Source of the DNA: Vulcanimicrobiota bacterium | GTDB taxonomy: Bacteria; Vulcanimicrobiota; Xenobia; Xenobiales; JADMJV01 | DNA: 64,000 bases | Reading direction: 5' to 3' | NCBI GenBank assembly: GCA_019637395.1 | Contig: JAHBVR010000011.1 | Coordinates: forward strand, 248,001 to 312,000 | In this document: positions 190 through 8,437 of the stretch, one piece after another | How the letters are laid out: the number at the start of each line of letters is the position of its first letter | How positions within the stretch are numbered: position 1 is the first letter of the stretch | The notes under the pieces: model-generated | Databases searched by the model: none | What the model was told of the DNA's origin: nothing | The model's input: the letters and a program-made list of their open reading frames with translations, nothing else | Translations under genes and position numbers: made by a program

Positions 190-473
190 TTCTCTACCGA
201 CTGCGCAATACGCGCGAAGGCCGCAAGCGCGACGAATTCGCCTCGGGGGAAATCCACTACCAGAACGGCAGCGTCCATCTCGACGTACCCGACCGCAGCC
301 TGGCCAAATCCGTTCAAAAGCATTTCCTGGAAAGCTTCCGCGTGCGCGCCGTGCGCGGCAGCCTGGAGACCTTTCTGGGCCACGCCTGGATCGATCTGCT
401 GCCGGGCAGCGAGCAGCATTTCGATGAAGGCCTGCGCCAACTGGTGCGCTTAAATCTGATCGCCGAAGAGTAG
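186..473 (+). CDS. Hypothetical protein, 95 aa
   Basis: This small soluble, charged protein starts with an ATG that overlaps the preceding stop by 4 bases, a sign of translational coupling with the partial upstream gene. There is no signal peptide or membrane segment. Alternating beta-type and helical stretches suggest a compact alpha/beta fold, but I do not recognise a family. The longer minus-strand frames over the same bases have no coding support and were not called. Confidence 0.6.
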   Translation: MILYRLRNTREGRKRDEFASGEIHYQNGSVHLDVPDRSLAKSVQKHFLESFRVRAVRGSLETFLGHAWIDLLPGSEQHFDEGLRQLVRLNLIAEE

Positions 474-628
474 TCCGGCCTCTCTCTGATGTCGGAAAGC
501 CAACACGAAGCGCTCACGCAGCTCGGGCCGAAGCCGGCCCGGCTCTTGGGGCGAATGAGAGCTGGCACACGAATACCAAAGTTCATAGAATAGACAAACT
601 GAGGACACCTTCTCTTCCCGGCCAGCGC

Positions 629-634
629 TAGGCT
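629..634 (+). promoter_or_regulatory. -10-like hexamer TAGGCT, predicted leaderless start
   Basis: TAGGCT fits the TANNNT pattern of a -10 element and is followed by exactly 6 nt and then the ATG at 641, which would put transcription start at or next to the start codon. I see no convincing -35 at 16-18 bp. The same spacing recurs before five other genes in this window. Confidence 0.45.
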
Positions 635-640
635 GGGGGT

Positions 641-1561
641 ATGAGCCACGACCGACTGTTCAAGAAACTCATCAGCCTCTACTTCTACGACTTCCTCGAG
701 CTCTTTGCTCCGACACTCTGGGAGCGCATCGTCCGTTCCCGCAGTCCCGTCTTTTTGGACAAGGAGAGCCTGGGGAAAATACCCGGACTCCGGCGCAGAG
801 AGAAAGACCTCGTAGTTCGGGTGCATCTTCTTGACGGCGACCAGGCGTCCATCATCGTCCATTTGGAGCACGAGGCCCAGAATCACCAGAATATGCCAGA
901 GAGAATGTTCATGTACTTCCGCCGTTTGCTCGAATTATATGACACGAACCAGATCTACCCGATCTGTGTTTTCTCTGCCCGAGCCAGGAAACCCCGGCCG
1001 ACCGAATACAATATCCGCTGCCACAACCTAAACACCGTAACCTTCCGCTACCACACCATTGAGCTGGCCCACCTGGACTGGCGGGCCTTCCTCAAAAAGC
1101 CCAACCCCGTGGCCAGTGCCCTGATGGCCCGAATGGCCATTCGAGCCGAAGACCGCCCTCGGGTCAAGGCCGAGTGCTTGCGTATGCTGGCCAATCTGAG
1201 GGTAGATTATGACAAGGCCGTAGTCATCGGCCATTTCGTGGAGAGCTACCTGAAGCTCAATGCTGAAGAAGTGAGGACATTTGAACGCATCCTGGAATTA
1301 CTACCTCAAGAAGAGAAGGAGACGGTTATGACCTACACCACCAGTTGGCACCGCGAGGGACGCAAAGAGGGGCGCAAAGAAGGTCGCCGCGAGGGCCGTA
1401 AAGAGGGGCATCTTGAGGGGCGCAAAGAGGCGAGCCGAGAGATCGCCCTCCGGATGCGCGCTTCGGGAGTAGACCTCCATACAATTGCAGACCTCACAGG
1501 CCTCACCATCTGCGAAATAGAGTCCCTCTCAGATGCTTGGAATGGAACTTGCCAGGGCTGA
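641..1561 (+). CDS. Rpn-family PD-(D/E)XK nuclease (transposase-like YhgA type)
   Basis: The 306-aa product resembles the Rpn/YhgA recombination-promoting nucleases, which nick DNA through a PD-(D/E)XK fold and are linked to RecA-independent recombination and phage defence. The likely active site is Asp56 (KDLVVRV) followed by LEHEAQ at 75-80, giving the D...ExQ pattern. Residues about 237-263 are a Gly-Arg-Lys-Glu tandem repeat, common in the tails of this family, followed by a short HTH-like segment (HTIADLTGLTICEIESL). It sits beside the convergent BrxD/helicase operon. The gene is preceded by a predicted leaderless -10. Family placement is by motif only; nuclease activity is inferred. Confidence 0.75.
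   Translation: MSHDRLFKKLISLYFYDFLELFAPTLWERIVRSRSPVFLDKESLGKIPGLRRREKDLVVRVHLLDGDQASIIVHLEHEAQNHQNMPERMFMYFRRLLELYDTNQIYPICVFSARARKPRPTEYNIRCHNLNTVTFRYHTIELAHLDWRAFLKKPNPVASALMARMAIRAEDRPRVKAECLRMLANLRVDYDKAVVIGHFVESYLKLNAEEVRTFERILELLPQEEKETVMTYTTSWHREGRKEGRKEGRREGRKEGHLEGRKEASREIALRMRASGVDLHTIADLTGLTICEIESLSDAWNGTCQG
1352..1430 (+). repeat. Imperfect 12-bp tandem repeat inside the Rpn gene
   Basis: The units read roughly GAGGGGCGCAAA and encode the repeated Glu-Gly-Arg-Lys tetrapeptide of the nuclease tail. Because the unit is a multiple of three, copy-number change keeps the frame, so the tail length can vary without breaking the gene. Confidence 0.7.
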
Positions 1562-1605
1562 TGGCTGTGTCGAGCCAACTGACGGATAATGTCTTATCTT
1601 AGCGC

Positions 1606-3153
1606 TTAAAGCTGGAAGAGGCTTTTCAGTTCAGCCTCGGAGAGGCTATGGCCCAGATCCATGCTGAGACCGTCGACCGTCTCTTCAAAGAGCTGGCGCT
1701 TGCCTTTCAGGATAGCCGAAATACGCTCTTCAATGGTGCCCAGGCAGACATAGCGAAAAGCCTCCACCGGGTAGGGCTGGCCCAGGCGGTGGGCGCGGCT
1801 GTCGGCTTGTTCCTCGATGGCCGGGTTCCACCAGCGGTCCAGGTGGAAAATGTAGGAAGCCGACTGGAGATTGAGTCCTACGCCGCCGGCCCGTAGCGAG
1901 AGCGCCAGCAGCTTGTGCCGGGGGTCTTGAAGAAAGCGTTGAGTGGCCTCGTTTCGCTGGGCGGCCGACATGGAACCCGTGTAGGCCAGCGGACGGTAAT
2001 CCTTGAGAAATCGGCAAACCAGCCCGACGCCAAATTGCTCATCGGTAAATTGGGAAAAGACCAGCGCCCGGTGTCCCTCGGCCACGAGAACCTCCATACG
2101 CCGGGCAATGTCTTGCAACTTGGCCGATTCGCCAGTGACGGGGTCATGATTGCAAAGTTGCTTGAGCCGGACGATCAGCTCCAGAATTTGCGTCACCCGC
2201 AAGGCCGGCCCCTGGGACTGCAACTGCACGATTCCCTGAGTTTCGGCTTCGTCGTAGGCTCGGCGTTGGCCCGGACCGAGTTCCACTTCGATCTCGCGCA
2301 CCCGACGGGGCGGCAATTGCGTCAAAACCTCCGACTTGCGCCGGCGCAATTGCACCTCCTGAAGCTTTTGCATGAGTTGCTGGCGGGAGCCAAAGCGCTG
2401 CGGAGCGCCGGCCAGGAACTCGAGCAACGAAACCACGTCCTCCAATCGATTCTCCAGCGGAGTTCCGGTCAGAGCCCAACGCCTCTGGCTGGTCACCCGC
2501 TTACAGGTCCGGGCCAGCGAAGTTTCCCGGTTCTTGATGCGCGAGGCCTCATCCAGCACTAAAACACCCCATCGCTCCCGGGCAATCAGCTGGAGGTCCG
2601 CGCGCAGGGTCTCATAACTGACCAGCTTCACGTGGGCCGGGCGGCGCCAGAGCGATTGCCGGGGAGCCGGACCGATCACCGGCACCACTCTTAGTTCGCT
2701 CCCCCAAATACGAAATTCCCGGGCCCATTGGCGCACCACCGCCGAAGGGCAAACGACCAGGGCGCTCTCGATTTGCCTGGTATGCAGTAGCAGGCGCAAA
2801 GCCCCTATGGTCTGCACGGTTTTGCCCAGTCCCATATCATCGGCCAGCAGCAACTGCTGGTTCTGGATCAGCGTGGAAATCCCCAACTGCTGGTAGGGCA
2901 GCAGGGGAAAGGGCCATTCCAGCACGCCGCTCTCCAAATCCAGATAGATGGGCGCCTGCAAGGCCGACATCAGGCGTTTGAGCAGGTCATCGTTCATCCC
3001 TGATAGGGGACTGGCCTCACTCGCTTCCTGGCTGGCTCCGTCACCGGAGCCCGGGCGCAGCAGGGTGACCGAGAGCGCTCTGCTCAGAGCCAGCCCCCGG
3101 GCTTCCAGGACGGCGGGCTCATCCGGTAGCAACTCCGGCACCGGCCATCTCAT
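1606..3153 (-). CDS. SNF2-family DEAD/DEAH helicase (BrxHI-like position)
   Basis: This 515-aa superfamily 2 ATPase carries all core SNF2 motifs: Walker A DDMGLGKT (about 105-112), the DEAS box (about 201-204), TGTPLENR (about 229-236), and in the second lobe GGVGLNLQ, the DRWWNP motif and AHRLGQ. Such proteins translocate on or remodel DNA-protein complexes using ATP. It is short for the family because the N-terminal region before motif I is only about 100 residues. It is the last gene of a five-gene overlapping operon; its ATG overlaps the upstream stop (ATGA). A BrxD-like ATPase two genes upstream mirrors the brxD-brxHI pair of some BREX loci, so a nucleic-acid role in defence is inferred. 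Confidence 0.88.
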   Translation of the reverse strand: MRWPVPELLPDEPAVLEARGLALSRALSVTLLRPGSGDGASQEASEASPLSGMNDDLLKRLMSALQAPIYLDLESGVLEWPFPLLPYQQLGISTLIQNQQLLLADDMGLGKTVQTIGALRLLLHTRQIESALVVCPSAVVRQWAREFRIWGSELRVVPVIGPAPRQSLWRRPAHVKLVSYETLRADLQLIARERWGVLVLDEASRIKNRETSLARTCKRVTSQRRWALTGTPLENRLEDVVSLLEFLAGAPQRFGSRQQLMQKLQEVQLRRRKSEVLTQLPPRRVREIEVELGPGQRRAYDEAETQGIVQLQSQGPALRVTQILELIVRLKQLCNHDPVTGESAKLQDIARRMEVLVAEGHRALVFSQFTDEQFGVGLVCRFLKDYRPLAYTGSMSAAQRNEATQRFLQDPRHKLLALSLRAGGVGLNLQSASYIFHLDRWWNPAIEEQADSRAHRLGQPYPVEAFRYVCLGTIEERISAILKGKRQLFEETVDGLSMDLGHSLSEAELKSLFQL

Positions 3154-3692
3154 GGCTCACCCCAGGCGGCGTAAGGAAAGACTTCGCGCAATCCGGCCCG
3201 GACCCGTTCCAAGGGTTCGCTGGCCAGTCCCCGACGTTGCAAGGTGTGCGCCAGCGAGTAGGCGCGCATAGGCGGAGTGGGCGGGGCGTTGAGCCAGGTC
3301 CACTGGGCGGGCGCCTGGTCGGTGGCCGGTTCGGCCAGCGCAAAGGGAATGGTTGGAGACATTTCACGGCGGCAAAATTCCGGGTCGCCCAGGTCGGGGG
3401 AAGCGATCAGCAGATCGGGGTCGCGGCGGCAGCCGGAAAAGAGCGTACGCACCAACGCCGGCACACCCTGGCGGCGGACCTGGGCTTCCGGCCAGAGAAA
3501 TCCGGCCGGAGCGGCCAGCGAATTGTAGACGAATTCGAGCGGACCGCCTTGCGAGTCCACCAGTAAAATGGCCCCGTAAAAGGTCCGAGCCGGCTCCAGC
3601 CAGACCACTTCTAAAAAAGCCGCGATTCCATCCTCTCCCGGCTTGCGATGGGGAATGGGCAGGCTAACCGTCCTGGGCCAATTCGCTGTCAT
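3150..3692 (-). CDS. Hypothetical protein of the BrxD-like operon, 180 aa
   Basis: I chose the ATG at 3692; a TTG three bases upstream is the alternative. The start lies within the last 29 bases of the BrxD-like gene and the stop overlaps the helicase start, so it is translated inside the operon. The protein is soluble, Pro-rich in its second half (LNAPPTPPMRAYS) and has no recognisable catalytic motif. Its fixed place between the ATPase and the helicase suggests an adaptor for one of them, but that is inference from context only. Confidence 0.7.
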   Translation of the reverse strand: MTANWPRTVSLPIPHRKPGEDGIAAFLEVVWLEPARTFYGAILLVDSQGGPLEFVYNSLAAPAGFLWPEAQVRRQGVPALVRTLFSGCRRDPDLLIASPDLGDPEFCRREMSPTIPFALAEPATDQAPAQWTWLNAPPTPPMRAYSLAHTLQRRGLASEPLERVRAGLREVFPYAAWGEP

Positions 3693-4863
3693 CAATCGGT
3701 GTCGAATCGAAGCTCAGCTCTTCTATCTTCACCTGGGGAGACTGGTCGGGATAAAAGCGGTGCAGATCCCACTGGGTGACCCAGCGCCGAATGCGTTGGC
3801 GGATGGGAGTGCTGCCTTCATAGTAATCATCCTGGTAATCCGGAGCGACCAGCTGGTAGGCTTCTTCATAGAGCGCTTTGATGCGGTAGCGAACCGATTC
3901 GATTTCGCTGCGGTCGGGATCGATCAGGCGCAGATTGCCTTTGAGCATGGAGACTCCGGCTTGGGCCAGCCGATCCCGATCATCTTGCGCCAGCAGAAAG
4001 CCACTGGCTTCATCGGGCAACACACAGGTGTTGACGAAGCTGGAGGTCATGGCAAAGACAGGTAAGACGCCGCTGCCGGGTTGGCTGGCCAGTTGGGACC
4101 ACCAGCCCAGTTGCTCGTAAGCAGCCAGGCGCTGCTTTTTGGAAAACTGGGCCATGCGCTCCAGTTCATCCACCAGCACCACCACCCCGCCCAGGCCGCC
4201 GGCGCGCAACAGCCTGGCAAAAAGCTGAATGCGTTGCTGGGCCAGCGGAGCCACTCGCGGGGTATTTCTCAAATCGTAGCTGGAAGCGGCGCCGATTTCC
4301 TTGAGTTTTTGTTGGATCAAAGTTTTGAGCAGAGGCTTGCCTTCGAAGTCGCCCAAAATTTGGAAGCGAAGCTCGGGATCGGACACGAACTCCGTGTAGA
4401 GATGAAGAAGGGCGCGGAATCGATCGTGGATATCGGGCGACTCCGCCAGCCATTCACGTACGGACAGAAAGTGATCGGCACGGGGCGGCAGATCGCTGTA
4501 GAGGGTGCGCAGGGCTTTGCCCAGGCGTCCGGGAGCGCGGGCGTTCTCACTCAAGGCTTTGAGCACCACCGGGGCATTGCCGAGCGGCATTTCCGGACTG
4601 ACCACCAGGTAACTGGAGGCAAAATTGCGTTCTTCCGCCAGTGCCTGCAAATATTCCAGCAAATGGGTCTTGCCCGAGCCGAAGTTGGCGCTGATGACCA
4701 GCGGCTTACAGGGCGCTCCGCGTTCTAGCTCCTCCAGAGCGGTTTCAAAGGAAGCTTTGATTTCCGTCTGGGTGGTTCCCAACTGGGCCACGGCGTGCCG
4801 GCTGGGAACGCCGGAGCGCAAGCCCTCGATGGCGGCCCGGGCGCGCATCTGATCGGCGGTCAC
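3664..4863 (-). CDS. BrxD-like ATPase (DUF2791 family)
   Basis: The 399-aa product matches the DUF2791/BrxD AAA-type ATPases found in BREX and related conflict systems. It shows the family's N-terminal region (RARAAIEGLRSGVPSRHAV), a Walker A ANFGSGKTH at about 59-67 and a Walker B VVVLVDELERM at about 227-237. It starts with GTG, overlapping the upstream stop as GTGA. In BREX types that carry it, BrxD sits next to a helicase, as here. No PglX methylase, PglZ phosphatase or BrxC lies in the window, so this is a BREX-related but distinct arrangement. ATPase activity is well supported by motifs; the biological role is inferred. Confidence 0.82.
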   Translation of the reverse strand: MTADQMRARAAIEGLRSGVPSRHAVAQLGTTQTEIKASFETALEELERGAPCKPLVISANFGSGKTHLLEYLQALAEERNFASSYLVVSPEMPLGNAPVVLKALSENARAPGRLGKALRTLYSDLPPRADHFLSVREWLAESPDIHDRFRALLHLYTEFVSDPELRFQILGDFEGKPLLKTLIQQKLKEIGAASSYDLRNTPRVAPLAQQRIQLFARLLRAGGLGGVVVLVDELERMAQFSKKQRLAAYEQLGWWSQLASQPGSGVLPVFAMTSSFVNTCVLPDEASGFLLAQDDRDRLAQAGVSMLKGNLRLIDPDRSEIESVRYRIKALYEEAYQLVAPDYQDDYYEGSTPIRQRIRRWVTQWDLHRFYPDQSPQVKIEELSFDSTPIDDSELAQDG

Positions 4864-5954
4864 AGCGCACCTGCCAGATGTACCAGAGCGGCGCTGGGAT
4901 TGGCCTGGTTCGCTCCCCGCACTTCCAGCCCGATACGGGTTTGCAGAGCATCGTAATTGTGGTAGTTGCGCGGGCTACCCAGATCATAAAAGGATCGGCT
5001 GGTCAGCACCACCAGCAAGAACCGCTCGAAGCTATCGATCTCATCGATAAAGCGACGGAGCAGAGCGAGCATATTTTGATAAGCCAGGTCGGTGTAGTAG
5101 AGGCCGGTCGGATCGGGAGCGTGCAGGACGGCATTTAACTCGTCCTTGCCCAGGCCGGCCTCGATCGCCTCATTGAGGCTCAGCATCTTCTGTTCGCGGA
5201 GTTGGGCGGCAGTCGGCTTCTTGCCTTCATAAGGCCGCAGATCCAAAGTAACCACCAGGCCCGGATGGCCCAATTGAGGGAGCCAATGACAGAAAGAGGC
5301 GAGCATGGCCCGGGCATTCGACTGCGAGATGCGCTCGTAAATCTGAATCTTCTTCAGGGCGGTGGCGCCTCCCGGCCTGGTCTGACCGGCAAACCAGGCC
5401 AGCAATACCTCCTCGATGTTCGGACTGTTGGCGTCGGGCATCAGTTGAGCCCGCCCCAAGGCCGTCACCGCCGTGCGGAATTCTCGCGCCATTCCGTGGT
5501 CTCGGAGTTGCGGAGTGGCCAGCTCGGCCTGGTATTGATGCATCAAGTCGGCCGGGTCTCTACTGTTGTCGCCGGCGATCGCTTCCAGATCGTTGAGGGC
5601 TCTGTCCGGACCGATGCGCACTCCCCGCGATTCCAGATGGCGCCGGACCTGGATGGCCGACCAGGCTTTGTAGTCCACTGCCCGCGTGCATTCGAAAAAG
5701 AAGCGATCCATGCGGTGGAGATCCTTCTTCTTGCCGCTTTCCTCCAACTCGGCCGGGTCGAGGTGGGCATGCCAGAATCCGCTTTGCTGAGCCTGCTCGG
5801 CGAGACGCTGGCGGACCCGTGCCAGCACCTCTTCGCTTCCGCTGACCACCTTGACGGCCGACCCTCCGGCGGCCACAAACTGATTCAGATAGTCGTCTAG
5901 AAGAATCTTCAGCCAGGCGTCCACCGGTATTTCCTGGTTGGAGACAGCAGCCAT
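4860..5954 (-). CDS. BrxD-like protein lacking a P-loop, 364 aa
   Basis: The start is the ATG at 5954, whose A is shared with the upstream stop (TGATG); the longer frame to 6242 lies inside the upstream gene and is discarded. The C-terminal part looks like the DUF2791 fold, with a hydrophobic strand LLVVLTSRSFYD and an ending rich in NPSAALVHL-type residues. The position expected for Walker A reads VVSGSEEVLARV (about 37-48), with no GxxGxGK[ST]. I infer a catalytically dead or regulatory paralogue of the next gene's ATPase, perhaps forming a heterocomplex. Remote homology is my judgement from pattern and needs profile comparison. Confidence 0.6.
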   Translation of the reverse strand: MAAVSNQEIPVDAWLKILLDDYLNQFVAAGGSAVKVVSGSEEVLARVRQRLAEQAQQSGFWHAHLDPAELEESGKKKDLHRMDRFFFECTRAVDYKAWSAIQVRRHLESRGVRIGPDRALNDLEAIAGDNSRDPADLMHQYQAELATPQLRDHGMAREFRTAVTALGRAQLMPDANSPNIEEVLLAWFAGQTRPGGATALKKIQIYERISQSNARAMLASFCHWLPQLGHPGLVVTLDLRPYEGKKPTAAQLREQKMLSLNEAIEAGLGKDELNAVLHAPDPTGLYYTDLAYQNMLALLRRFIDEIDSFERFLLVVLTSRSFYDLGSPRNYHNYDALQTRIGLEVRGANQANPSAALVHLAGAL

Positions 5955-6724
5955 CAGCGAAATTCGATGCCGTAGTAGCGCACGGGTTGGCCGTCTTCTC
6001 GATAAACCGTAAAGACATCCCGTTCTTTGACCTTGGCCGAGGGATGTTCCAGATGAAAGCGTTTCCCCGAGCGGGTCAGACGGACCTCGGAACGGGCCAG
6101 GGCATAGATATCCTGGCCGAACTGGGCCGGGCTGTTTTCCTTCTTCCAGCCGGGAGCGGCCGCGAAGCGCTCGTAGATCTCCTGGAAAGTGGCCACGGTG
6201 GCTCCATTTTTGGTCAGATCTTGCCAGGCCAGGTAAAGACATTCAAGAAATTCCTGAGGGCCGGAAACCGACTTCTTGTCCCGCAGGCGCTTCAGCTCCG
6301 CGGCCACCGCACGCGGGTGAAGCTTGGACCAGGCGTTCTTGCCGATCTTCAAACGGGAACCGCTCGGCTGGCTGCGCACCAGCACCGGCGACGAGACCAA
6401 CGTCTCACCATCGATGATCACCTTGACCCCGAGGCTGTCGGCGGCGGCCTGCACGTCCTCCCGCCAGCGACCGCTTTCCAGGTAAGCGCGCGAGTCAAAT
6501 TCCCATGAGCTGCTGGCCTCCTGAGCGCGCTCCAGCGAAAGGGGCAGCAATTCTTCCACTTTGGACTGGGCTCGCTGGCGCGCCCCCACGTCGCCCTCCA
6601 CGCAGGCCTTCTTCCAGGCACTTACGGCTTTGGTCAGACGCTGGCAAACAGCTTTCAAATCATCGACCCGGGATTCATGAACCTGCAGGGCCTCTTCCAG
6701 GGATTCAAGTTTCGTCTCTAACAT
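5954..6724 (-). CDS. Coiled-coil hypothetical protein, first gene of the BrxD-like operon
   Basis: I chose the ATG at 6724 (256 aa); a TTG at 6772 overlapping the hepT stop would add 16 residues. Residues 1-70 are a Leu/Glu/Lys heptad-like helix (LETKLESLEEALQVHESRV), followed by a charged globular region and a C-terminal domain with short strands (KRFHLEHPSAKVKERDVF). No catalytic motif is visible. It is coupled to the next gene by a one-base TGATG overlap. The role may be DNA or partner recognition for the ATPases; this is inference. Confidence 0.65.
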   Translation of the reverse strand: MLETKLESLEEALQVHESRVDDLKAVCQRLTKAVSAWKKACVEGDVGARQRAQSKVEELLPLSLERAQEASSSWEFDSRAYLESGRWREDVQAAADSLGVKVIIDGETLVSSPVLVRSQPSGSRLKIGKNAWSKLHPRAVAAELKRLRDKKSVSGPQEFLECLYLAWQDLTKNGATVATFQEIYERFAAAPGWKKENSPAQFGQDIYALARSEVRLTRSGKRFHLEHPSAKVKERDVFTVYREDGQPVRYYGIEFR

Positions 6725-6768
6725 CGGGCGCGATTTCGCACGGCCGTGCCAATCCCCCTTCCGCGCCC

Positions 6769-7215
6769 TCAATCAAGAAAGTTCTGAATCTCCCGGGCGA
6801 AGAGCCGAAAGTCGTCCAGATGGGTCTGAAGGATTTGGTGGACTACAGCATAGTCCACATTCCAGTAGCGATGCACCAACAGGTTGCGAAAACGGCTCAT
6901 CTGCCCGAGCCGTTCCACCAGACCTGAGGACTTGAGAATATCCTTTTGAAACAAGCACTCGAAACTGTCCGCCATGCCTTTGGGAACCGGATGATTCAGG
7001 GAAGCCAGCAGGTGGCTGGCGATGCCGGCGATGGCTTCGATGCTGATGGTCAAAGCGTAGGCGGCACTGTAGGTCGCTTCTTTGCTGCGCAAAAACTGGT
7101 CGGCGGGCCTTTGCGACAGTTGCTGAAGAAAAAGCAGGTTCTCTTCGAGAGAAGCCAGACTTTCGTCGATAAAATCTCGGTCAGGAGGCAAAGCGACCGC
7201 TCCGGATTCTGGCAT
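6769..7215 (-). CDS. hepT: HepT-like HEPN toxin (DUF86 family)
   Basis: The 148-aa all-helical protein has the HEPN RNase signature R-x4-H followed by the x-Y extension: Arg110-NLLV-His115-Arg-Tyr117. HepT toxins cleave RNA, and the tyrosine two residues after the histidine is the one modified by the partner MntA in characterised type VII systems. It overlaps the mntA end by 35 bp, the usual antitoxin-first order. Length and motif match the family. The toxin lies directly upstream of, and in the same direction as, the BrxD-like operon, with a TTGA overlap or 45-bp gap to it depending on the start used, so it may share a transcript. Confidence 0.88.
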   Translation of the reverse strand: MPESGAVALPPDRDFIDESLASLEENLLFLQQLSQRPADQFLRSKEATYSAAYALTISIEAIAGIASHLLASLNHPVPKGMADSFECLFQKDILKSSGLVERLGQMSRFRNLLVHRYWNVDYAVVHQILQTHLDDFRLFAREIQNFLD

Positions 7216-7609
7216 GCATGGCCTCGCGGATGGGTTTCAGGAAATACTCTCGGTCCCGCTCTTCGCTGATCGAAGCGGCATGAAATCGCGCCAACTGATT
7301 GGTGTCCAGGCACACCAGTAACCTCCCATTCTCGATGACTCGCCAGCGAAAGAGGGGGGGGGCGCCACGCAAATCTTGCAGATCGATCTGGAACTCTTCG
7401 GATTCGTAAAGTTCCGCCAGCAAAGGGAGAAGACGATTCACAGCCGGAGGGGCCAGGGCAGCGTGAGCCAGCAAGAATGCGAAGTCCAAATCGCTCTCCG
7501 AGTTGCGCCGGCCGTGAACCTGGGAGCCGTGGGCATAGAGCGCCACTACCCCAACCGAAGCACAAGCTTCGGTCAGGCGCGCCTGTTCTTCTCTTGCCAG
7601 ACTCTTCAT
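7181..7609 (-). CDS. mntA: MntA-like minimal nucleotidyltransferase antitoxin
   Basis: This 142-aa protein has the polymerase-beta nucleotidyltransferase signature GS-x10-DxD: Gly28-Ser29 and Asp40-Leu-Asp42. In MntA-HepT systems the enzyme neutralises the toxin by adding AMP units to the HEPN tyrosine, which is present in the neighbour. The antitoxin gene comes first and overlaps the toxin, favouring tight stoichiometry. A hairpin (7611-7631) abuts its start codon and there is no clear Shine-Dalgarno sequence. Confidence 0.87.
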   Translation of the reverse strand: MKSLAREEQARLTEACASVGVVALYAHGSQVHGRRNSESDLDFAFLLAHAALAPPAVNRLLPLLAELYESEEFQIDLQDLRGAPPLFRWRVIENGRLLVCLDTNQLARFHAASISEERDREYFLKPIREAMHARIRSGRFAS

Positions 7610-7610
7610 A

Positions 7611-7631
7611 AAGAAAAGACTTCGTCTTCTT
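7611..7631 (-). promoter_or_regulatory. Hairpin abutting the mntA start codon
   Basis: On the minus strand an AAGAAGAC arm, a 3-nt loop and a GTCTTTTCTT arm form an imperfect stem that ends one base before the ATG of mntA. Its T-rich descending arm could end transcripts from the upstream SDR gene or mask the translation start. Both roles are inferred. Confidence 0.4.
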
Positions 7632-7654
7632 GGCGAAGCACCCTACGGCAATTG

Positions 7655-8437
7655 CTAATCGCCGAAGACGGCGGCGGACTCCTTGACCACCCGGGGGTCG
7701 GTGTATTCGATCATCTCGCCGTTCCACTCGGGCGGGCAGTAGAGGGCCAGCCAGGCCATGGACTTGGCCGGCACCTCGGGGGGTTCGAGCCGATTGGTCT
7801 CCTTGAGCTGCTGGAAGTATTGCAGCATATCGGGCGGCATGTGGCCCGGCCCGTCTTTGCGGATCTGGTCCTGCATGGCCGTGTCGATCACCCCGGGACG
7901 TAACGAGACAGCGATGATGCGAGGCTGCTCGACGGCCATGCAGCGGGTCAGGTGGTGCAGTCCGGCTTTGCTGGCGCAGTAAGCCGACCACGCGGCCAGC
8001 GGATGCACGGCCGCGCCGGTGCTGACGTTGACCACTTTGCCCTTGCTCTGCAGCAGCCAGGGCGAAGCCAGTCGAGCCAGATAGAGAGGTGCGACCAGGT
8101 TGATCTGCATGGCCCGCGACCAGGCTTCCATGTCGACGTTGGTGTAAATACCGATAGGATCAATAACGGCCGCGTTGTTGACAACCGCGTCGATGCGTCC
8201 CCATTTATCGCTGGCGGCGCTGACGATTTTCTGGCAGACTTCCAGATCGCCCACGTCCCCCGCCACGGCCAGGACCTCGGACCCGAGCTGCTGGCACTCT
8301 TGGCGGGCCTTCTCCAGCAACTCTCCGTTGCGGGCATTGAGGACCAGTTTGACCGACTTTTTGGCCAGCCAGTGGGCCGTAGCCGCGCCCAGTCCGCGCG
8401 AGGCTCCGGTGATGATGACGACACGTTTTTCACTCAT
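7655..8437 (-). CDS. SDR-family NAD(P)-dependent oxidoreductase
   Basis: This is a classical short-chain dehydrogenase/reductase of 260 aa. It has the cofactor motif TGASRGLG at 10-17, the NNAA motif at 87-90 and the catalytic Ser139, Tyr153 and Lys157 (YCASK). The basic Arg14 in the glycine motif and Arg36 after the second strand favour NADP. The substrate cannot be told from sequence; the C-terminal region resembles sepiapterin-reductase-like SDRs only loosely. It lies 45 bp upstream of mntA on the same strand, with a hairpin between them, so a shared transcript is uncertain. Confidence 0.9.
   Translation of the reverse strand: MSEKRVVIITGASRGLGAATAHWLAKKSVKLVLNARNGELLEKARQECQQLGSEVLAVAGDVGDLEVCQKIVSAASDKWGRIDAVVNNAAVIDPIGIYTNVDMEAWSRAMQINLVAPLYLARLASPWLLQSKGKVVNVSTGAAVHPLAAWSAYCASKAGLHHLTRCMAVEQPRIIAVSLRPGVIDTAMQDQIRKDGPGHMPPDMLQYFQQLKETNRLEPPEVPAKSMAWLALYCPPEWNGEMIEYTDPRVVKESAAVFGD

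Follow-up and report, generated by a model that had tools for sequence, protein, structure and literature searches.

The window, that is, the whole stretch of 64,000 nucleotides of Vulcanimicrobiota DNA that was analyzed, carries a compact operon of five genes on its minus strand (positions 1606–6724; Table 1). In transcriptional order, these genes encode a coiled-coil protein, a BrxD-like protein that lacks a P-loop, a BrxD-like ATPase with intact motifs, a protein of 180 amino acids, and an SNF2 motor. Gene calls and profile searches agreed with a preliminary description of this DNA on the positions and identities of all five genes. The end-to-start overlaps given in that description were also reproduced: neighboring genes share one base (TGATG), GTGA, 29 bp, and ATGA, in the order of the operon. 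The 29-bp overlap holds if the 180-aa protein starts at the ATG at position 3692; judged by its homologues, this protein may instead begin some 30 bp farther in, at a place where only a CTG is available in the window. Pfam assigned the motor to SNF2 (E = 2e-51) and both ATPase-like proteins to BrxC_BrxD (E = 4e-16 and 3e-7). The coiled-coil protein gave no significant match in Pfam, PADLOC, NCBIfam, or PHROG, and the 180-aa protein was matched by no family in any of the four, in keeping with the orphan status ascribed to it earlier. A promoter scan gave no signal above chance.

Table 1. Features of the five-gene operon and of the inserted island that carries it.
Feature	Position	Strand	Basis or remark
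Coiled-coil protein, 256 aa	5954–6724	-	First gene of the operon; family alignment (n = 31)
BrxD-like pseudo-ATPase, dead, P-loop-less	4860–5954	-	BrxC_BrxD (Pfam); motif alignment
Live BrxD-like (ORC/Cdc6-type) ATPase	3664–4863	-	BrxC_BrxD (Pfam); motifs intact
180-aa protein, predicted RNase H fold	3150–3692	-	Homologue alignment; predicted structure
SNF2 double-stranded DNA motor, 515 aa	1606–3153	-	Pfam; complete helicase motif set
Inserted island, 7.2 kb (rpn, operon, mntA-hepT)	470–7654		Comparison with four congeners
Rpn-family (PD-(D/E)XK) nuclease gene, island passenger	641–1561	+	TIGR01784, E = 2e-11, slightly below the curated cut-off
HepT toxin of type VII toxin-antitoxin pair, island passenger	6769–7215	-	NF047751, above cut-off
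MntA antitoxin, island passenger	7181–7609	-	NF047752, above cut-off
ATCGCCGAAGA, 11 bases, left island edge	459–469	+	Edge repeat
ATCGCCGAAGA, identical 11 bases, right island edge	7658–7668	+	Edge repeat

In the first of the two BrxD-like proteins, Walker A is replaced by VKVVSGSEEVLARV and Walker B reads VVTLDLRP, with its glutamate gone; the second has both NFGSGKTH and VVLVDELE intact. Alignment of the sequences from all loci showed that the first ATPase has neither GK[ST] nor the Walker B glutamate in 29 of 29 members of the clade to which the window belongs, and that its P-loop is kept in 54 of 54 sequences outside this clade. The second ATPase has both motifs in every sequence covering them. 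In the ATPase tree, which came from a quick search and includes some rows of unusual composition, all dead copies group in a single clade (support 100), their live partners form a mirroring clade (support 99), and BrxD and SngB branch apart from the operon ATPases. The simplest reading is that the P-loop was probably lost once and that both copies have since been inherited together. A search of solved structures with the ATPase sequence gave no match.

The other three proteins were characterized by structure prediction and alignment. An AlphaFold2 model of the coiled-coil protein (mean pLDDT 92) consists of a long helical hairpin followed by a mixed C-terminal domain, and a fold search of solved structures with this model found no match; the aligned family of 31 proteins spans UBP9 to Clostridia. 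The model of the 180-aa protein (mean pLDDT 88, pTM 0.85) has a predicted topology of three strands, a helix, a strand, a helix, and a strand. Its top matches among solved structures were UvrC, in its C-terminal half (E = 9e-6), and, next, endonuclease V (E = 4e-5); the TM-scores were modest (0.39–0.44). Its sequence gave no match to solved structures. The prediction of an RNase H fold has good support, and a placement near UvrC or endonuclease V is tentative. Since E53 is the only invariant acidic residue among 14 aligned homologues, a DDE-type active site or catalytic triad is not conserved, and the protein is apparently non-catalytic. The nearest solved structure to the SNF2 motor is Sulfolobus Rad54-like 1z63 (E = 2e-57), and its best matches in PADLOC are ZorD and DpdE. 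Its helicase motifs are intact in all full-length members of the family.

The operon lies within an island. The genes at 186–473 and 7655–8437 adjoin in all four congeners examined by protein and nucleotide alignment, and the 7.2 kb between them is therefore an insert in the genome of the window. The 11-base repeat at the two edges of the island is not a proven target duplication, because the congeners have similar gene ends; it may instead be a recombination site. Congener G137 carries the operon at a different site, between two genes that we take, by reading their sequences and not from a profile match, to be birA and a clpS-like gene. This site is empty in a third species; the distance between the two genes is 23 bp in G135 and about 1 kb in G136. 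Since a single genus shows an empty site and insertions at two places, the operon is an accessory mobile locus and not a set of housekeeping genes conserved at one locus, an alternative raised in the preliminary description. No relative was found in the viral contigs searched, and none in the phage or plasmid records searched with an ATPase.

The island also carries an Rpn gene and an mntA-hepT pair, and these flanking genes had been taken as part of the case for a conflict module. Profile matches supported their presence, but a general link did not hold, as all 12 other five-gene loci described below lack Rpn and MntA-HepT in the flanking DNA examined. Because hepT has the same orientation as the coiled-coil gene and lies 44 bp ahead of it, a seven-gene transcript is possible in this strain only, and mntA-hepT may be co-transcribed with the operon there.

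Loci related to the operon were fetched by the conserved motifs of the live ATPase and then subjected to six-frame profile searches. The complete five-gene order, whose recurrence the preliminary description had marked for a search, was found in 12 genomes besides that of the window. Four each of these are from UBP9 and Armatimonadota, two from Chloroflexota, and one from Myxococcota; the remaining one is an unclassified bacterium. With the same order in this many genomes, the arrangement is not due to chance. ATPase identity to the four UBP9 relatives runs from 75 down to 59 percent. Five of the 18 genomes of the class have the complete set; in addition, G132 has a partial relative, located at the edge of a contig, and G140 has a distant relative. 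Two Alphaproteobacteria have the first three genes and SNF2, with no recognized 180-aa protein. At one of these loci (L069:11431–11694), the SNF2 gene has shrunk to an 87-aa fragment behind three intact genes, an apparent case of module decay.

The first three genes, for a coiled-coil protein and then two BrxD-like ATPases, constitute the core of a wider family. This trio was present at nearly all scanned loci on long-enough contigs, and at a few loci the coiled-coil gene was missed by the profiles. The window belongs to the family, with the three genes adjacent and in order and the live ATPase intact. In Clostridia and Spirochaetes (L075–L124), the core occurs with a PbeA-related ResIII-type helicase, usually divergent, and any other neighbor is common to at most 7 of the 50 loci. 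In Actinobacteria, the core is usually without a linked helicase, and some UBP9 paralogues have an Lhr/BrxHI-like helicase as a partner. The compact BrxD plus SNF2 operon proposed earlier is real but represents one branch of a larger family, whose other members have other helicases or none linked. Furthermore, a paralogous trio with both P-loops intact, scored by its first ATPase, is found in 15 of the 18 genomes of the class, including that of the window (L026:7814–11245 on contig C35; also L035, L036, L037, L041, L042, and L043). This trio looks resident, and as it is near-universal in the class, the three-gene core need not serve defense only. Two genomes of the same order (G141, contig C100; G144, contig C117) each have two BrxD1-like matches close together on one contig, perhaps representing a duplicated trio.

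Some members of the family lie beside known defense genes. At L049, 222 bp separate the end of the operon from cas3, which belongs to a type I-C CRISPR-Cas system with cas8c, cas4, and cas1. At L050, it is directly downstream of DruE3 (Druantia III), with an OLD/AriA-like ATPase farther along. In two Actinobacteria (L065:2226–11206 and L072:3–4869), a related trio stands back to back with SngA of Shango, and SngB is next in L065. Several other relatives have ordinary neighbors (L053, L062, and L069). Read locus by locus, these neighborhoods are suggestive of a possible enrichment in defense genes around the family.

The island contains no PglZ, BrxC/PglY, or other BREX core gene, and no methyltransferase or PglX was detected among the eight proteins scanned. 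The genome gave a single PglZ match, which lies on contig C33 and neighbors a gene for a BrxC-like DUF6079 protein; the window is part of contig C3. This whole-genome search ruled out an ordinary BREX locus running past the window, with PglX or PglZ just outside it, and bore out the absence of BREX core enzymes on which the preliminary description had relied. The idea of a self-contained module that may work without methylation stands as to gene content, the island being free of BREX core genes and modification genes; its role in defense is one that we infer. Contig C33 (loci L027:5532–9949 and L146:9265–15419) also has a BrxD-BrxHI pair and an adjacent Rpn gene, about 75 kb from PglZ, which raises the question of whether these genes and the PglZ-DUF6079 pair represent a split or reduced BREX.

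AAA+ proteins of the ORC/Cdc6 type load helicases and act in mixed assemblies that include catalytically dead subunits. With due reserve, we read the operon as an accessory, horizontally moving anti-invader module built around an asymmetric AAA+ loader, and we put the chance of this reading at somewhat below even. The live ATPase and its dead paralogue would form a mixed assembly of the ORC/Cdc6 type, in which the coiled-coil protein holds the subunits together, and the RNase H-fold protein would aid in the recognition of a DNA structure. The assembly would then load or activate the SNF2 motor on invading DNA, and translocation by this motor without cleavage would block replication or transcription. 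Such a non-cleaving block on foreign DNA would be the likely outcome, since the operon has neither a nuclease site nor a modification gene. Self and non-self are proposed to be told apart by the structure or state of the DNA, because no modification enzyme is linked.

Several lines of evidence favor the anti-invader loader. First, 13 genomes, including that of the window, share the same order across four named phyla. Second, one genus has an empty site and two insertion sites. Third, the two ATPase copies appear to be co-inherited, with the P-loop lost in all 29 members of the clade and kept in all 54 sequences outside it. Fourth, CRISPR-Cas, DruE3, and Shango are found as neighbors, and the SNF2 motifs are intact. 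Fifth, BrxD was proposed in a recent survey as the loader of the BrxHI helicase (PMC12839542), which offers, by analogy, a mechanistic precedent. Against the loader are the three loci with ordinary neighbors, the presence of a paralogous trio in most genomes of the class, which allows the core a resident role, the lack in the operon of a nuclease or other obvious killing activity, and the lack of relatives in the viral contigs and the plasmid and phage records searched. A broader proposal is that the dead/live BrxD-like pair and the coiled-coil protein define an undescribed, multi-phylum anti-invader family, which would load interchangeable SNF2, ResIII-type, or Lhr-like motors on foreign DNA and distinguish self from non-self without DNA modification. 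We consider this possible and on the doubtful side.

The main rival is a mobile module for DNA repair or genome maintenance, a cousin of the resident trio that loads its motor where the host chromosome is damaged or stalled. Such a function would agree with the paralogous trio of the class, which in some genomes has an Lhr-like helicase, with the resemblance of the 180-aa protein to two repair nucleases, UvrC and endonuclease V, and with the ordinary neighbors of several relatives. However, the operon is patchily present, with empty sites and differing insertion sites within a genus, its SNF2 gene has decayed at L069, and CRISPR-Cas, Druantia, and Shango are among its neighbors. Repair is an unlikely role, though a serious one to consider.

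A reduced relative of BREX, acting jointly with the PglZ and BrxC-like proteins that the genome encodes on another contig, is much less probable. Contig C33 could supply such partners, with PglZ and the DUF6079 gene and a true BrxD-BrxHI pair on the same contig, but these genes are not linked to the operon. Moreover, the genome has its own BrxD nearer to the BREX family (465 bits versus 42), and the operon ATPases branch apart from BrxD and SngB. Both BrxD-like proteins of the operon failed the cut-off of the BrxD model NF033438, scoring 45 and 38 bits against 350. Less probable still is that the operon is an atypical Shango, with the coiled-coil protein in the place of the TerB protein and SNF2 in that of the helicase. 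The two have in common a BrxD/SngB-type ATPase beside a superfamily 2 helicase, and the trio stands back to back with Shango in two Actinobacteria; yet trio and Shango are separate gene sets where both occur, and the operon has a pair of ATPases where Shango has one and lacks both a TerB domain and an SngC-type helicase. We give hardly any credence to the operon being a passenger of an island selected for, and stabilized by, its MntA-HepT pair, as this pair, although complete and close upstream on the same strand, is missing from the other five-gene loci in the DNA examined, and the five genes stay together there with motifs intact.

As far as the literature searched shows, all BrxD-helicase pairs described to date belong to BREX or Shango, and the open-access literature gave no description of BrxD-like or BrxC/D-type stand-alone systems. 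A free-standing version in which one partner is dead, the helicases are exchangeable, and modification genes are lacking would set the ATPase-motor step apart and open it to direct tests. The family is within reach at the bench, as its Clostridial branch is found in many gut bacteria, including at least one named strain, Schaedlerella arabinosiphila DSM 106076.

Compared to known systems, the operon exhibits both shared and distinct features. The SNF2-family motors of defense systems, namely ZorD of Zorya I, DrmD of DISARM, and DpdE, resemble that of the operon but are much longer (750–1300 aa), and their partner proteins are absent here. The helicase of the Clostridial branch, related to PbeA, suggested PbeABCD. 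However, PbeC is not BrxD-like; it is an ATPase of the ABC type that carries a coiled coil (PMC10853773). Searches of the trio for PbeB, PbeC, and PbeD gave no match save one at chance level, and neither the CxC-type ABC ATPase (PbeC) nor the DndE-like PbeD had a significant match in the operon. PbeABCD was rejected on these grounds.

Shango (SngA, SngB, and SngC) is, like the operon, compact, with a SngB/BrxD-type ATPase and a helicase and without linked modification genes. In contrast, the operon has no TerB protein, as no match to TerB (SngA) was found in the coiled-coil protein; its ATPases are paired; and its motor is SNF2 in place of the SngC helicase. The match of its ATPase to SngB reached only 22.5 bits, in the P-loop region, and its position in the tree is outside the BrxD/SngB branch. 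In the BrxD-BrxHI pair of type 2 BREX, as in the operon, an ORC/Cdc6 ATPase of the BrxD type adjoins a superfamily 2 helicase. However, the operon has two ATPases, one of them dead, and its motor is SNF2 and not a Ski2/Lhr-like helicase. Furthermore, it adds the coiled-coil and RNase H-fold proteins and is without PglZ, PglX, PglW, and BrxC. The best reading is that the operon is related to both BrxD-BrxHI and Shango and belongs to neither.
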